Assembly (NCBI GenBank): GCA_023383795.1
Contig: JAHDYJ010000002.1
Span: forward strand, 1 to 64,000
Length of the DNA: 64,000 nucleotides
Direction of reading: 5' to 3'
Source of the DNA: Burkholderiales bacterium
GTDB taxonomy: Bacteria > Pseudomonadota > Gammaproteobacteria > Burkholderiales > SG8-39
Shown here piece after piece: positions 7,710-28,459 of this stretch (positions are counted from its first letter, which is position 1; each line of letters begins with the position of its first letter). The translations under genes were made by a program, and so were the position numbers. The notes beneath the pieces were generated by a model. That model did not search any database, was not told the DNA's origin, and was given only the letters and a program-made list of their open reading frames with translations.

Positions 7710-9058
7710 CGGCCGGCTCCCGTCGGCGCCTCGGCGCGGGCCTGCAGGCGCCCCACCGGGTAGTACTCGATGCCCGCGCGCGCGAGATCGGCGGGCTCGT
7801 ACAGGTTGCGGCCGTCGAACACCACCGGCGTGCGCAGCCGCGCCCGCAGCTCGGCGAAGTCGGGGCCGCGGAACTCCTTCCACTCGGTGACGATCGCCAG
7901 AGCATCGGCCCCGTCCAGCGCGGCGAGCGGCGCCGCGGCGTACGCGATCCGGTCGCCGAAGATGCGCCGCGCCTCCGGCATCGCCGCCGGGTCGTACGCG
8001 CACACCGCGGCGCCGCGCGCGAGCAGGTCCTCGACCAGCACCCGGCTCGGCGCCTCGCGCATGTCGTCGGTGCCCGGCTTGAACGCGAGCCCCCACAGCG
8101 CGAAACGCCGCCCGGCGAGATCCTGGCCGAAGCGCTTCACGATCTTGCGCGACACCACGCGCTTCTGCGCGTCGTTCGCGCGCTCCACGGCCGCGAGCAC
8201 GTCGAGCGGGACGCCGACGTCGCGGGCGGTGCGCGCGAGCGCCTTGACGTCCTTCGGGAAGCACGACCCGCCGTACCCGACCCCCGGGTACAGGAAGTGG
8301 TACCCGATGCGCGGGTCGGCGCCGATGCCCCGCCGCACGAGCTCGATGTCGGCGCCGACGCGCTCGGCGAGGTTCGCGAGCTCGTTCATGAACGAGATCC
8401 GCGTCGCGAGCATCGCGTTGGCCGCGTACTTGGTCAGCTCCGCCGAGCGTACGTCCATCAGGATCAGGCGCTCGTGGTTGCGCTGGAACGGCGCGTACAG
8501 CGCGCGCATCACCCGGGCCGCCTCCTCGTCGTCGGTGCCGATGATGACGCGGTCCGGGCGCATGAAGTCCTCGACCGCCGCGCCCTCCTTCAGGAACTCG
8601 GGGTTGGCGACGACCGCGAACGGCAGCGCCGCCCCGCGCGCCGCCAGCTCGGCCGCGATGGCGCGCCGGACGCGGTCCGCCGTGCCCACCGGCACGGTGG
8701 ACTTGTTGACCACCACCCGGTAGCCGTCCATGTGGCGGCCGACGCCTTGCGCGGCCGCGACCACGTGCTCGAGATCGGCGGAGCCGTCCTCGTCGGGCGG
8801 CGTGCCGACGGCGATCAGCTGCAGCGCGCCGAAGCGCACGGCCTCGGCGACGTCGGTCGTGAAGCTCAGGCGGCCGGCGGCGGCGTTGCGCGCCACCAGC
8901 GGCTCGAGGCCCGGCTCGTGGATCGGGACCTCGCCGGCGCGGAGCCGTTCGATCTTGCGCGCATCGACGTCGAGGCAGACCACGTCGTTGCCGACATCGG
9001 CGAGGCAGGCTCCGGCCACGAGGCCGACGTATCCGGTGCCGATGACGGTGATTTTCAT
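7706..9058 (-). CDS. ugd: UDP-glucose 6-dehydrogenase
   Basis: Oxidises UDP-glucose to UDP-glucuronate with NAD+, for surface polysaccharide. The 450 aa begin with a Rossmann motif [19 protein letters not shown]. The catalytic cysteine lies in [16 protein letters not shown], and [18 protein letters not shown] marks the UDP-binding C-terminal domain. It heads a four-gene chain (ugd, rfaE1, hldD, cysM) with 4-base overlaps. The start is next to a short repeat array (9069-9234) separating it from lapB. Confidence 0.96.
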
Positions 9059-9068
9059 GATGCGGAGC

Positions 9069-9234
9069 GGGCAGTGGACAGTGGACAGTGCGCAGTAGCG
9101 CGTCGCCGCGCCAGCGCCCGGCTGCCGAGCGTGCCAGCGGTTTGTCTCACGGCGTCATAGCCAAGCACGACGGCGTTCGCGCGCTGACGACCTACTGTCC
9201 ACTGTCCACTGCCCACTGTCCACTGTCCACTGTT
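9069..9234. repeat. Inverted array of a 7-base repeat between lapB and ugd
   Basis: Units of TGGACAG/CAGTGGA type are tandemly repeated. Bases 9069-9089 (21 bp) are perfectly complementary to 9194-9214, leaving a 104-base loop. The right arm continues in further units to 9234, immediately before the lapB stop codon at 9236-9238. The inner flanks also show imperfect complementarity (near 9091-9115 and 9170-9193). No gene is visible inside. Confidence 0.85.
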
Positions 9235-9235
9235 G

Positions 9236-10411
9236 TCACGCCGCATCGAATTCCTCGGTCCGCCGCGGCGGATAGGTCTCCCACCCGCCGCAGGCCGGGC
9301 ACTGCCAGTAGAACTGCCGGGCGCGAAAGCCGCAGGTCTCGCAGCGGTAGCGGGCAATCCGCCGCGTTTGCCCGTGCACGAGGCTGCGCACCATCTCGAG
9401 CTCGGGGCGCCGCTCGGCGGGCGCGGTCAGCAGCTGCGCCTCGAGCAGCCGGTCGAGGCCGAGCAGCGTCGGGTTGCGGCGCAGCTCGTCGCGGACGAGC
9501 TCGTAGGCAGCCTGCGCCCCCTTCGCGTCGATGCTGAGCTGGAACACCACGTCCAGCAGATCGAGGGACGGATGGGCGGCGAGATAGCCGCGCAGCAGCG
9601 TCAGGCCCTGCTCGGTCTCGCCGAGCGCCTGGAAGCTCTTCAAGAGTCGCTGCGCCACCAGCGCAAGATAGGCCGGATTCTGCGCCTCGATGCGCTTCCA
9701 GTGCTCGATCCCCGCGCCGTGGTCGCCCGCCGCGGCCGCGAGGTCCCCGCCCAGTATGCTGGCGCGCACGCACTTGCGGTTGGCGCGCAGCGCGTCGTCG
9801 AGGTGACCGCGCGCCGCGTCCGGGCGCGAGTGGTTGATCTCCTGCGCCGCGAGCTCGCAGTAGAAGTTCGCGATCTCCTTCTGCCAGCCCTGCCCCGAGT
9901 CGCGCTCGAGCTCGCGCGCGACGTCGATCGCCTTCTCCCAGTCCTTCTCCTGCTGGTAGATGTCGAGCAGGTTCTTGAGCGCGGTCGCCCGGTGCGGGCC
10001 GTCGCGCAGGCGGACGAAGACCTCCTCGGCCCGGTCGAGCAGCCCCGCCTTCAGGTAGTCCTGCCCGAGCTCGTAGAGCGCGAGCACCCGCTGCTCCCGG
10101 GCGAGGTCGGAGCGCTCGAGCAGGTTCTTGTGCATGCGGATCGCGCGCTCGGTCTCGCCGCGCCGGCGGAAGAGGCTCCCGAGCGCGAAGTGCAGCTCGA
10201 CGGTCTCGGGATCGACCTTCACCACCTCGATGAACGCCTCGATCGCCTTGTCGGGCTGCTCGTTCAGGAGGAAGTTCAGGCCGGTGAAGTACGAGCGCGG
10301 GACGCGCCGCGACTCGGTGACCAGGTGCTTGATGTCGATGCGCGCAGCGAGCCAGCCGAGCGCGAAGAACGCCGGAAACGCGATCAGCCACCAGAACTCG
10401 AGCTCGGGCAC
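9236..10411 (-). CDS. lapB: Lipopolysaccharide assembly protein B (TPR, rubredoxin-like)
   Basis: LapB (YciM) is an inner-membrane-anchored regulator that, with FtsH, controls LpxC turnover and LPS assembly. The 391-aa protein has an N-terminal membrane helix (FWWLIAFPAFFALGWLAARI, residues 6-25). TPR-type helical repeats run from about 45 to 340. A C-terminal rubredoxin-like metal knuckle has CETCGFRARQFYWQCPACGG with four cysteines. It lies 16 bases after lapA, the usual lapA-lapB pair. The start MPELEFWW places the membrane helix at the N-terminus as expected. Confidence 0.95.
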   Translation of the reverse strand: MPELEFWWLIAFPAFFALGWLAARIDIKHLVTESRRVPRSYFTGLNFLLNEQPDKAIEAFIEVVKVDPETVELHFALGSLFRRRGETERAIRMHKNLLERSDLAREQRVLALYELGQDYLKAGLLDRAEEVFVRLRDGPHRATALKNLLDIYQQEKDWEKAIDVARELERDSGQGWQKEIANFYCELAAQEINHSRPDAARGHLDDALRANRKCVRASILGGDLAAAAGDHGAGIEHWKRIEAQNPAYLALVAQRLLKSFQALGETEQGLTLLRGYLAAHPSLDLLDVVFQLSIDAKGAQAAYELVRDELRRNPTLLGLDRLLEAQLLTAPAERRPELEMVRSLVHGQTRRIARYRCETCGFRARQFYWQCPACGGWETYPPRRTEEFDAA

Positions 10412-20476: not shown

Positions 20477-23100
<2,624 letters not shown>

Positions 23101-23185
23101 CACTCGGCAGGTTTCCGGCGACCCGTGCGGGCGGCGGGCGGGGGCCGCGCTCGATTTCCCGGCTCGGGTCCAAAAAAAGAGTGGA

Positions 23186-23194
23186 ATCTTACCA
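23186..23194 (-). promoter_or_regulatory. Possible extended -10 promoter for gyrA
   Basis: On the minus strand, TGGTAAGAT fits an extended -10 (TGnTAnnnT), about 85 bases before the gyrA ATG. No good -35 was seen. The rest of the divergent region 23101-23392 shows no gene. Confidence 0.35.
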
Positions 23195-23392
23195 TTGCGC
23201 GCGTTCCCGAGCCACGCGGATGGCCCCCGTTCGGCCTCCCTGCCCCGTGCCCTCGGCGCTTCCACGCCGCGTACCGGTTGGTGTACCATTCCGCGCGTCG
23301 AGTCCGGCGGGCGGCCGCAGGCGGGGCCAGCCGAGCGCCGTGCAAAGAATCAAGACGAAGCCACAACACACACACGCCACAGGGGGTGTCCA

Positions 23393-24112
23393 TTGAACGC
23401 CATTCTCAAGAGTCTCAGCGCGCTCGGCGTCGCCGCATCCTGCCTCGCCGTCCTGCCCGCGGCCGCGCAGGCGCCGGCCCCGAAGGGCCCGCTCGGCGGG
23501 CCGGAGGCCTACGTCATCGACACCGCCGGCGCGATCGTCAAGAACCCGTTCGGCCTGTGCTGGCGCACCAGCCAGTGGAGCCCGGCGAACGCCGCTTGCG
23601 AGTGCGATAAGGACATCCTTCCGCGCGAGCGCTGCGCGCCGCCCGCGCCGAAGCCGGCCGCGGCCCCCGCCCCGGCCCCCGCCCCCGCCGCCAAGCCCGC
23701 CCCGGCGCCGATGGCGAAGCCGAAGGTCTGCGACTTCACCGCCGCGCTCACCGGCGATGCCACCTTCGATTTCGACAGGGCGGTGCTGAAGCCCGCCGCG
23801 CGCGCGCAGCTCGATCGCGACGTCATCGCGCGCCTCGGCTCGTGCGCGTCGATCACGGTCATCAACGTCAACGGCCACACCGACCGCATCGGCAGCGCGA
23901 CCTACAACCAGAAGCTCTCCGAGCGCCGCGCCGCCGTCGTGCGCGACTACCTGGTGAGCAAGGGCGTCGATCGCAGCAAGGTCGAGACCTACGGCTACGG
24001 CAAGACCACGCCGATCAAGTCGTGCCCCGACACCAAGGACTTCAAGGCGCTCATCGCCTGCCTGGCGCCGAACCGCCGCGCCGAGGTCCAGGTCAAGGGT
24101 CCGGCGAGGTAG
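23393..24112 (+). CDS. OmpA-family outer-membrane lipoprotein-like protein, paralog 1
   Basis: A 239-aa exported protein with a Sec signal peptide (about 1-27, cleavage after AAAQA). A short conserved segment with KGPLGGPEAYVID and CECDKD follows, then a Pro/Ala-rich linker. The C-terminal OmpA/peptidoglycan-binding domain contains NVNGHTDRIGSATYNQKLSE RRA-type motifs. It lacks the 8-strand barrel of E. coli OmpA. The start is TTG at 23393, supported by AGGGGGT seven bases upstream. A close paralog lies at 27728. It probably tethers the envelope to peptidoglycan. Confidence 0.9.
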   Translation: MNAILKSLSALGVAASCLAVLPAAAQAPAPKGPLGGPEAYVIDTAGAIVKNPFGLCWRTSQWSPANAACECDKDILPRERCAPPAPKPAAAPAPAPAPAAKPAPAPMAKPKVCDFTAALTGDATFDFDRAVLKPAARAQLDRDVIARLGSCASITVINVNGHTDRIGSATYNQKLSERRAAVVRDYLVSKGVDRSKVETYGYGKTTPIKSCPDTKDFKALIACLAPNRRAEVQVKGPAR

Positions 24113-24132: not shown

Positions 24133-24160
24133 GCCCCGCTCGCGAGCGGGGCTTTTTTTT
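24133..24160 (+). terminator. ompA terminator, T-tract duplicated by IS insertion
   Basis: A GC-rich stem (24133-24141 with 24144-24152, GCCCCGCTC/GAGCGGGGC) is followed by eight T (24153-24160). The eight T recur at 26259-26266 as the target duplication of the inserted element, so the hairpin and T-tract remain intact for ompA. Confidence 0.88.
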
Positions 24161-24204
24161 GGCTGTATTATACTTGCCGTACCCAAATTAGGGCGGGATG
24201 ATCT

Positions 24205-25089
24205 ATGATCCTAGATCATCCAGCCATTGGGTCGGTACCTGATGACCATTTCCTGGCGGTTCTTGATGCCGTCTTGCCCTCAAGGCGCGGGGTTGTCGCC
24301 GTGCTGAAGGCGTATTTCGACGCGAGCGAGCGGCCAGACGGGACTTTTTGCGTCGCAGGGTTCGCCTTCGCCAAGGAACAGGTTAAGAAGTTCGACAAAG
24401 AGTGGTGGGCGCTATTCGGGGCATATGGCGGATGTCACATGAAAGAACTTGCCCATCGAACCGGGCGCTTTAAGGGTATCTCTACTGAGGAAAGCATTCG
24501 GTTAATCAAAAGGGCCGTGGCGATCATCAATAAGCGCACGTCATTTGGGATAGCGGTTTCCTGCTACACCGACGAAATGGCCCAGGTCTTGCCAAAATGG
24601 ATCGATGGATTCCAAGGGGCGTACCCAGTCTGCTGTCACATGGCAATGACCGCCTTGGGGAGCAAGGTCCAAGAGTCCGGTCACGATGATGAGATCGCCT
24701 ACTTCTTTGAGAGTGGGGATAAGCACTCTGGTGCGGCGCATCGATTTATGGGAAAGGCCGATGAATCTCCTGAACTCAAAGCCAGCTATCGCCACCGTTC
24801 CCACACTTTCATCGGTAGAGATTCTGCGCTGCCATTGCAGTCGGCAGATATTTTCGCATGGGAATTCACCAAGTATTGGGATGAAACCGCACAGAAGCGG
24901 ATTCGCTTGATGCGTAAATCACTAGTGGCTTTGTTGAGCAAAGGGGCGGCTAATTACGATAAGAAGAAATACAAGCTACTTCACCTCAGTGGCCCGCCAT
25001 TGCAAAGGTTCGCTACCTCTGTTGCGCGGCTTGGCCTTCTCCAGATCGAAGAAGACGGCATTAGGAAGAATCGACCTTACGCCGCGTAG
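24205..25089 (+). CDS. DUF3800-like protein, passenger of the IS element
   Basis: A 294-aa soluble protein. An N-terminal strand with VLKAYFDASERPDG (acidic D39) is followed by CVAGFAF; a HMKELAHRTG segment lies near 78, and LPLQSADIFAWEFTKYW at about 209-225 has an acidic D215. These match the DUF3800 pattern (DES-type start, LqlADllay end), thought to have an RNase H-like fold. The ATG at 24205 is 44 bases inside the element; a GTG at 24301 just before the first strand is an alternative. Function is unknown. It converges with and overlaps by 29 bases the small gene at 25061. I infer a nuclease-like or mobility-linked role only weakly. Confidence 0.75.
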   Translation: MILDHPAIGSVPDDHFLAVLDAVLPSRRGVVAVLKAYFDASERPDGTFCVAGFAFAKEQVKKFDKEWWALFGAYGGCHMKELAHRTGRFKGISTEESIRLIKRAVAIINKRTSFGIAVSCYTDEMAQVLPKWIDGFQGAYPVCCHMAMTALGSKVQESGHDDEIAYFFESGDKHSGAAHRFMGKADESPELKASYRHRSHTFIGRDSALPLQSADIFAWEFTKYWDETAQKRIRLMRKSLVALLSKGAANYDKKKYKLLHLSGPPLQRFATSVARLGLLQIEEDGIRKNRPYAA

Positions 25090-25237
25090 ACTTCTTCTTT
25101 GGCGAACCAACAATGCTGTCGAATGCGCGCCTGAACGTTTGCTGCTTTTCATCAGCCCTGAGCTCCTTGGCAGCATCTACGAATCGCTCCGACTGGCGCC
25201 GATCATCAGGTGGTGCGCTACTTCGCTTTTTTGCCAT
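25061..25237 (-). CDS. Small basic hypothetical protein downstream of transposase
   Basis: A 58-aa charged protein starting MAKKRSSAPPDDRRQSERF, with a probable helix (SERFVDAAKELRADEKQQTF) and a Lys/Arg-rich end. A clear AGGAGA ribosome site lies eight bases before the ATG at 25237. It begins 27 bases after the transposase stop on the same strand, so it is probably co-transcribed with it. No domain is recognised. Its 3' end overlaps the convergent DUF3800-like gene by 29 bases. A longer start at 25267 lacks a ribosome site. Confidence 0.6.
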   Translation of the reverse strand: MAKKRSSAPPDDRRQSERFVDAAKELRADEKQQTFRRAFDSIVGSPKKKSTRRKVDSS

Positions 25238-25263
25238 TGGACTTTCTCCTGCGCCACGGCTCC

Positions 25264-26193
25264 TCATTCAGAAGTCGTTTCATAGGTCAGTCTACGCCCC
25301 TTCACACCGCGAAGGAGGATCTCTGCACGCTCGCGGTCCTCGATCCCGAGGGCCTTACGGTTGTTGTACCGGAAGTCGAATTCAGCGAGGTAGCGGTTGA
25401 GATGATGGTGCCCGCAATGGTGATAGACGCCCTTCATACCGCGCTTGAAGATGCTGAAATAGCCCTCGATGGTGTTGGTATGAATGTCGCCGCGCCCGTA
25501 TTCACCGGCTTGGTGGCGCACCACTCCATGCTCGGCGAACTCGCGCCCGACGATGGTGTAGTAGGCCGCCTCATCGGTTATCAAACGGGCTTCACGGGCC
25601 ACGTTAGCCTTGATGAGCGGGGCCAGAGTGGAGGCTTTCACGTCGTCCACGACCATGCTGATGGCGCGCCCGGTGGTGCGATCCACGAGGGCCAGAACCT
25701 TGTTCTTGTGGTGGTACCCGCGCCCCTTCTTCTGGCCCTTGGGCTTGATGGTCTTGTCGTGGCCGATGAAGGTTTCATCAACCTCGACGGCACCGCCATC
25801 CGAACCGAACGGAGCGAATTCGCCAGAGCGCATCGCTTCGCGGATACGGTGAGACATGAACCAAGCGGACTTAAGGGTGATGCCAAGAGTCCGATGGAGT
25901 TGATTGGAGCTGATGCCCTTCTTGCTGCACGCGATGAGGAAGATGGCTTGCAGCCAGAGGCGCAGCGGGATGTGCGACTTCTCAAAGATGGTGCCCATCT
26001 TGACGGTGAAGGGCTTGCGGCAGTCCTTGCATTTCCACAGTCCGATGCGAGTGGACTCGCCTTTGAGTTGGTAGTGCCCGCCGATCACGCCGCAGTGCGG
26101 GCACACGGGGCCATTGGGCCAAAGGCGCGCCTCAACGAACTCGTAAGCCGCTGATTCGTTATGGAAATATGCTGCGGAAAGGATCGAAGTCAT
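25264..26193 (-). CDS. IS1595 family (ISXO2-like) transposase
   Basis: A 309-aa DDE-type transposase. An N-terminal zinc ribbon has C31, C34, C55 and C58 (CPHCG, CKDC). The catalytic core has D139 in GAVEVDETFIGH, D207 in RLITDEAAYY, and N240/E243 with K250 in HTNTIEGYFSIFKRGMKG, the pattern of ISXO2-like enzymes. Length is normal and the frame is intact, so the element may be active. A GGAGA ribosome site lies before the ATG, and a good promoter reads in from the right terminal repeat. Confidence 0.95.
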   Translation of the reverse strand: MTSILSAAYFHNESAAYEFVEARLWPNGPVCPHCGVIGGHYQLKGESTRIGLWKCKDCRKPFTVKMGTIFEKSHIPLRLWLQAIFLIACSKKGISSNQLHRTLGITLKSAWFMSHRIREAMRSGEFAPFGSDGGAVEVDETFIGHDKTIKPKGQKKGRGYHHKNKVLALVDRTTGRAISMVVDDVKASTLAPLIKANVAREARLITDEAAYYTIVGREFAEHGVVRHQAGEYGRGDIHTNTIEGYFSIFKRGMKGVYHHCGHHHLNRYLAEFDFRYNNRKALGIEDRERAEILLRGVKGRRLTYETTSE

Positions 26194-26216
26194 GGTTAGT
26201 CTCCAATGTTATAGTT

Positions 26217-26245
26217 ATTCTAGACTAACTATCTGGGTATTTCAA
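26217..26245 (-). promoter_or_regulatory. Transposase promoter overlapping the right terminal repeat
   Basis: On the minus strand, TTGAAA and TAGAAT are spaced by exactly 17 bases, 24 bases before the transposase ATG. The -35 hexamer (26240-26245) lies inside the 25-bp terminal repeat, so transposase binding to the end could repress its own gene. Confidence 0.7.
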
Positions 26246-26284
26246 GTATAATATTGCCTTTTTTTTGGCACCTTGCGGTCCGGA

Positions 26285-27727: not shown

Positions 27728-28459
27728 ATGATCAAAAATGCAACAAGATTGCTCACGGCAGCCGCAACTGCGATGTTCCTCGGCGCGGCTCCTCAGGCCT
27801 TCGGACAGTCCGGCATGGCGGCCAACGTACCCAAGGGCCCGCTCGGCGGGCCGCAGGCGTACGTGATCGACTCCGCGCGCCAGATCGTCAAGACGCCCTT
27901 CGGGCTGTGCGTGCGCACCGGCTACTGGACGCCCGCCGCCGGCGTGTGCGAGTGCGACAAGGATCTGATGCCGGCCGCCGCCTGCACGTTGGCCGCGGCA
28001 CCCATGAAGCCCGCTCCGGCGCCCGCGCCGATGAAGCCCGCCGCGCCGCCCGCGCCGAAGCCGGTCACCGAGAAGGTCACCCTCTCGGCCGACGTGCTGT
28101 TCGACTTCGACAAGTACGCGCTGAAGCCCGAGGGCAAGACCAGGCTCGACGACCTGGTGAACCAGATCAAAGGCATCGCGCTCGAGGTGATCATCGCGAT
28201 CGGCCACACCGACCGCATCGGCACCGACGCGTACAACCAGCGCCTGTCGGTGCGCCGCTCCGAGTCGGTCAAGGCCTATCTCGTGAGCAAGGGGATCCAG
28301 CCGAACCGGATCTACACCGAGGGCAAGGGCGAGAAGCAGCCGGTCACCGGCAACAAGTGCATGAAGATGGGCGCCGAGAACGCCGGCAACAGGAAGCTCG
28401 TCGACTGCCTGCAGCCCGACCGCCGGGTCGAGATCGAGGTGGTCGGCACGCGCAAGTAG
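27728..28459 (+). CDS. OmpA-family protein, paralog 2
   Basis: A 243-aa exported protein with a signal peptide (about 1-26, FGQ). It shares with paralog 1 the segment [13 protein letters not shown] and [12 protein letters not shown], then CECDKD. A Met/Pro/Ala linker and an OmpA C-terminal domain ([20 protein letters not shown]) follow. A pair of cysteines near the end (NKCMKM and VDCLQPD) matches a pair in paralog 1, so a disulfide is likely. GAGGGGAAAG precedes the ATG. It is probably peptidoglycan-associated and arose by duplication around the deaminase gene. Confidence 0.93.

Follow-up and report, generated by a model that had tools for sequence, protein, structure and literature searches.

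The 64,000-nucleotide stretch analysed here (the window) contains a complete IS1595-family element at positions 24161–26258 (2098 bp), flanked by two exact copies of the 8-bp target duplication TTTTTTTT (eight T) at 24153–24160 and 26259–26266. An initial annotation of this DNA had proposed a complete IS1595-like element with ends and an exact duplication of eight T; both points were borne out, with 24161–26258 as the proper extent. The annotation had also described 25-bp terminal repeats. Inverted ends are indeed present at 24161–24188 (passenger side, + strand) and 26231–26258 (transposase side, − strand), but they are imperfect, matching at 20 of the first 25 positions and at 22 of 28. For one fixed pair of ends, the chance of at least 22 matches in 28 is 4e-9. 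The left copy of the duplication is the T-tract of an intrinsic terminator, whose GC-rich hairpin (24133–24152, + strand, 8-bp stem, −18 kcal/mol) lies in host DNA 3' of an OmpA-type gene ending at 24112. The element was inserted exactly in this T-tract and breaks no gene. Its G+C content is 55%, as against 70.6% for the window, and a search of the source genome found it as a single copy. Two OmpA-type genes of similar layout (23084–24112 and 27728–28459) flank the insertion region, and an amidohydrolase-like gene lies between them.

The transposase gene (25264–26193, − strand) is an intact frame encoding 309 aa with a zinc ribbon and a DDE domain. The product matched PF12762 (E = 4e-37), PF12760 (E = 3e-14), and NF033547 (196.8 bits, above the cut-off of 75), in agreement with its earlier designation as an intact ISXO2-like transposase, and it is the only IS1595 transposase in the source genome. 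A promoter-like site (TTGAAA, 17-bp spacer, TAGAAT) is found at 26217–26245 on the same strand, with its −35 box inside the terminal repeat. Promoter-like sites with 10 of 12 matches were observed at 28% of left ends, compared with 8% of shuffled controls. The motif is a putative transposase promoter that would draw its −35 box from the element end.

A small gene (25061–25237, − strand) is located downstream of the transposase gene and on the same strand. It may start at ATG 25237 behind a good ribosome-binding sequence, AGGAG, giving the 58-aa frame listed in the initial annotation, or at ATG 25267, which overlaps the transposase stop and gives 68 aa. The 3' ends of the small gene and of the passenger gene are convergent and overlap by 29 bp. 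Compared with its homologues, the small gene changes most at codon position 3, as is typical of coding DNA. The protein displays the pattern QxERFxEAARELxxDE...F and matched no Pfam family; its predicted structure consists of two short helices with a pTM of 0.34, too weak for a fold search.

The passenger gene (24205–25089, + strand) is oriented opposite to the transposase gene. Its open frame of 294 aa begins just inside the terminal repeat, and its changes relative to homologues are likewise of the coding type, with codon position 3 changing most. The frame had been described as DUF3800-like. Its own score falls below the Pfam cut-off for DUF3800 (PF12686; E = 0.068, 14.3 bits versus 21), and the assignment is based on the predicted fold and on homologous passengers that exceed the cut-off. 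The AlphaFold model (pLDDT 72, pTM 0.72) found an annotated phage DUF3800 model as its best Foldseek match (E = 5.2e-10, TM 0.61/0.72). When the model was compared with solved structures, RNase HII/H2 made up the whole top group, with Z up to 11.8 over 171 residues, whereas a search of the solved structures by sequence gave no match. The predicted RNase H fold covers passenger residues 33–234 (Z 9–12), and the first and last Asp would occupy strands equivalent to those of RNase HII/RNase H2, judging from the motif order. In contrast to this likeness in predicted fold, the sequence identity to these enzymes is only 8–15%, and the passenger lacks one of the four canonical acidic residues.

An RNase H-type acidic cluster, for which the initial annotation had advised looking, is present in part. 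D39 and D215, which lie in the conserved YxDxS and QxAD motifs of DUF3800, are invariant in 12 aligned passenger homologues, and position 169 (E169 in the window) is acidic in 10 of the 12. Position 40 is also acidic in 10 of the 12, but it is occupied by Ala in the window passenger (Ala40) and in that of the related element L022, whereas in most DUF3800 members the first Asp is followed by Asp or Glu. Because Ala replaces the acid next to the first Asp, the passenger may be altered in activity or inactive, and a nuclease step is plausible but not certain for this clade. The L022 passenger is the closest known relative (37–38% identical); it resides in a 2103-bp element of the same layout, with the exact duplication ACCCCTTG, in another betaproteobacterial genome bin. 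Two distant relatives were found in the phylum at about 1e-7, and there were none in plasmids or IMG/VR and no close ones in genomes of the class at E ≤ 1e-8. PADLOC models gave no match with the window passenger at E 0.1. The Rfam models of DUF3800 RNA motifs, structured RNAs known to lie upstream of some family members, did not match the element (E up to 5), and in 13 related loci none of them reached the gathering score. The 5' end of the passenger gene contains an inverted repeat (24179–24238), which was considered as an RNA leader resembling the published DUF3800 motifs and was rejected; this region is read as protein-coding because the frame is open in six elements and the changes are of the coding type. 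The frame is conserved at its N-terminal end, and this part possibly remains untranslated; an alternative GTG start just before AYFD would shorten the passenger by about 30 aa.

In order to collect related elements, genome contigs were scanned with an alignment of five transposases, which detected at least 566 relatives, and the best 80 loci were fetched. Plasmid records contained transposases 50–58% identical to that of the window. Elements were bounded by a pair of inverted ends starting with GG and flanked by matching 8-bp sequences, three of them (L017, L022, and L066) by hand. This procedure yielded 54 bounded elements of 1.87–4.66 kb, which share the end GGCGWTATTATACTTGACGTACCCA or a close variant, and 51 of them have an exact 8-bp duplication. 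The fractions given below refer to the 80 loci closest to the window among at least 566 relatives and may not hold for the wider family. A/T makes up about 79% of the duplications. At 15 of the 54 sites, the T-tract directly follows a terminator hairpin, as compared with an expected 2.5 when A/T-matched positions from these same flanks serve as the control; T-runs were not matched in this control, so the enrichment may partly reflect a preference for T-tracts, some of which happen to belong to terminators. Insertion into a terminator T-tract, seen at 24133–24160 of the window and in 14 relatives, possibly represents a safe-site preference.

The recurrence of the two genes beside the transposase was then examined between matching ends. 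The small gene was present in 48 of the 54 bounded elements and a DUF3800-type passenger in 14. The same ends were not found to lack both genes throughout, and none of the 54 was a bare element without cargo. A profile of the small protein seeded with four proteins was run over 87 sequences and produced 67 matches at E < 0.001, of which nearly all were located directly behind the transposase gene or at the distal end of the cargo. The gene was not found in the 184 other genomes of the class (185 were searched, including the window's own). Since the small gene is associated with the transposase irrespective of the cargo, its product would have a role in transposition or its control, and it is most likely part of the core that carries out or regulates transposition.

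Among the 14 bounded elements with DUF3800-type passengers, ten (L023, L036, L040, L044, L045, L056, L061, L077, L082, and L086) exceed the Pfam cut-off, and the other four (the window, L022, L057, and L084) were assigned by homology or weaker scores. Three further loci, L025, L028, and L064, possess a DUF3800-type gene beside the transposase; their far ends are unbounded, and they are outside the 14/54 count. All 17 passengers of this type are encoded opposite to the transposase, in contrast to the PIN genes, which share its strand. On the transposase tree, the 14 bounded DUF3800-type rows need 14 label changes. Background searches gave 26 DUF3800 matches in 143 whole genomes of the class, a density that predicts only about 0.005 DUF3800 genes for the cargo DNA. 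The initial annotation had counted a DUF3800 gene found mostly outside such ends as evidence against its reading. That outcome did not arise as worded, although DUF3800 genes at large do occur mostly outside such ends: none of 36 background DUF3800 loci (from genomes of the class and of the phylum) had such a transposase or small gene within about 1.5 kb. The absence of these parts from the background loci indicates that the family mostly lives elsewhere and that the element has picked it up repeatedly. DUF3800 is hence a general gene family gained many times by the transposon, not a tied part of it. Broken DUF3800 genes were seen at L044 and L084; at L044, a second, broken DUF3800-like gene is situated just outside the element (8699–9470).

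Comparison of sister elements revealed that elements swap the content of the slot more rapidly than their transposases diverge. Sister pairs share about 80–88% transposase DNA identity with no likeness in the cargo slot. L050 and L057 share 82% identity across a region of 1.1 kb, which starts at the left end and includes most of the small gene, and the similarity resumes at 82% in the last 52 bp; between these regions lie unrelated cargo genes, GmrSD-like in one and DUF3800 in the other. In the pair L064/L009, the transposase and the small gene are 88% and 90% identical, respectively, and the slot is unrelated. The similarity breaks at the cargo slot in L068/L082, L049/L062, L049/L086, L042/L043, L027/L038, and L056/L091 as well.

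A Pfam search over 86 cargo frames detected DUF3800 (10), PIN (9), and D12 methyltransferase (3), followed by RelA/SpoT, HNH, and DUF433 (2 each) and by single matches to SocA, GmrSD (L050, the GmrSD-like gene mentioned above), DUF5615, and others. Matches to 'rve' and IS3 correspond to nested insertion sequences. PADLOC identified both proteins (A and B) of PD-Lambda-5 as complete in L037 and L083, with E values from 1e-177 to 1e-116. These two elements (L037:4939–8515 and L083:4954–8441) are independent, and each has an exact 8-bp duplication. PD-Lambda-5 is known to protect E. coli against most phages tested (PMC9519451). PDC-S33 was found in L054, together with a RelA/SpoT domain. In the passenger of L044, the residues that matched DUF3800 (E = 4e-9) also matched the PADLOC candidate PDC-M04A (E = 3e-36); PDC-M04A, a phage-defence candidate of PADLOC, is thus a DUF3800-family protein (L044:6117–7184, − strand). 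Among the DUF3800-type passengers, only the L044 type matched PADLOC, and ten others were scanned without a match. Eleven elements (L007, L010, L024, L046, L049, L065, L069, L079, L085, L087, and L091) carry a two-gene cargo on the transposase strand, in which a protein of about 250–290 aa without a Pfam family is followed by a PIN-domain gene, and this arrangement looks like a toxin-antitoxin or defence pair. Many cargo genes match no family, and the label 'defence' therefore covers only part of the cargo.

These results make it probable that the window contains a cargo-carrying IS1595 transposon with an exchangeable defence or addiction slot, filled here by a predicted RNase H-fold nuclease. 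The platform, namely the element with its exchangeable slot, is well supported. Its fixed parts would be the two ends of about 25 bp, the transposase, and the small conserved protein, and its variable part would be the cargo slot. As expected from its family, the transposase would cut and join at the ends and insert the element in A/T-rich 8-bp targets; these would quite often be terminator T-tracts, where insertion would harm no gene. The slot of the window element would supply a DUF3800-like protein of predicted RNase H fold, transcribed in the direction opposite to the transposase. Some Cas12a2 and VI-F CRISPR loci have been reported to include DUF3800, described there as a protein of RNase H fold, and DUF3800 has also been linked to non-coding RNAs (PMC10910872, PMC12669027). 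From the fold, the sister cargo, and these published associations, we infer that the passenger most likely has a nucleic-acid-cleaving defence or addiction function benefiting the host or the element. The 'small defence module' suggested in the initial annotation is plausible, as sister elements carry complete PD-Lambda-5. In contrast to those elements, which have the same end motif and exact duplications, the window element has a single DUF3800-type gene that lacks a PADLOC match.

Toxin-antitoxin-like genes (PIN, SocA-like, DUF433/DUF5615, and RelA/SpoT) in the slot and the convergent overlap of the small gene with the passenger in the window would also be consistent with a DUF3800 gene that serves addiction or stabilisation. 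Its product would then be toxin-like and not phage-directed, perhaps with the small protein as its partner. The small gene, however, goes with every kind of cargo and so is no specific partner of DUF3800, and no dedicated antitoxin gene lies beside DUF3800 in 2.0–2.4-kb elements such as those of the window, L022, L036, and L061; we regard this explanation as unlikely. It seems very unlikely that the passenger is a chance hitch-hiker of no benefit to element or host. The single copy in the source genome, the cargo without known family, and the broken genes in L044 and L084 would fit such a passenger, but 14 separate gains of a single gene family with an unvarying orientation, against the roughly 0.005 genes expected, would not, and neither would the coding-type change between the window and L022 passengers at 37–38% identity. 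The initial annotation had further raised a 'mobility-support module'. On one such reading, the DUF3800 protein would aid transposition; it might, for instance, process RNA or RNA-DNA hybrids at the element. The RNase HII-like fold predicted for the passenger and the recurrence of DUF3800 in the element family agree with this idea; in contrast, in 40 of the 54 bounded elements the ends and the transposase type are the same but the cargo is different, and DUF3800 is scattered over the transposase tree, making such a role very improbable. Mobility support by the small gene is more plausible than by the DUF3800 gene.

The reading of the element as a transposon with an exchangeable defence or addiction slot can be compared with known systems. 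IS1595 elements with passengers are a known class, as the initial annotation had rightly stated. MTnSag1 and tISCpe8 likewise combine an IS1595-type transposase, terminal repeats of about 25 bp, 8-bp duplications, and one or more passengers beside the transposase; they differ in being mobilizable elements, with lincomycin resistance in the case of tISCpe8 (PMC5704250). The subgroup in the window differs from them in its nuclease-, defence-, or addiction-like cargo and in the conserved small gene beside the transposase. Our literature search found no published description of this subgroup, of IS1595 together with DUF3800, or of IS1595 elements with defence cargo or with the small gene; the passenger list of Siguier et al. 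(2009), the paper defining IS1595, was not part of the comparison.

Studies of defence genes usually concern large islands, prophages, and plasmids. The element in the window looks like a very small carrier of defence or addiction genes between bacteria, and a 2–4-kb transposon of this kind would be among the smallest vehicles for such cassettes. We tentatively extend this proposal, with somewhat less than even confidence, to a widespread IS1595 subgroup of about 2–4.7 kb that may be a dedicated vehicle for shuffling defence or addiction cassettes one at a time in a single slot, recognisable by a previously undescribed small protein that accompanies the transposase; the DUF3800 clade of the window would then represent an uncharacterised mobile RNase H-fold defence nuclease. 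If so, the ends and the small gene could be used as a simple search handle for new candidate systems, including cargo genes without a family, and the wide scatter of DUF3800 genes would be explained. The transposase nearest to that of the window by tree path is that of L013, whose left flank is again TTTTTTTT. Reading by eye of its cargo region (L013:6145–8808) revealed a ParB-like protein and a Dam-type DNA methyltransferase.
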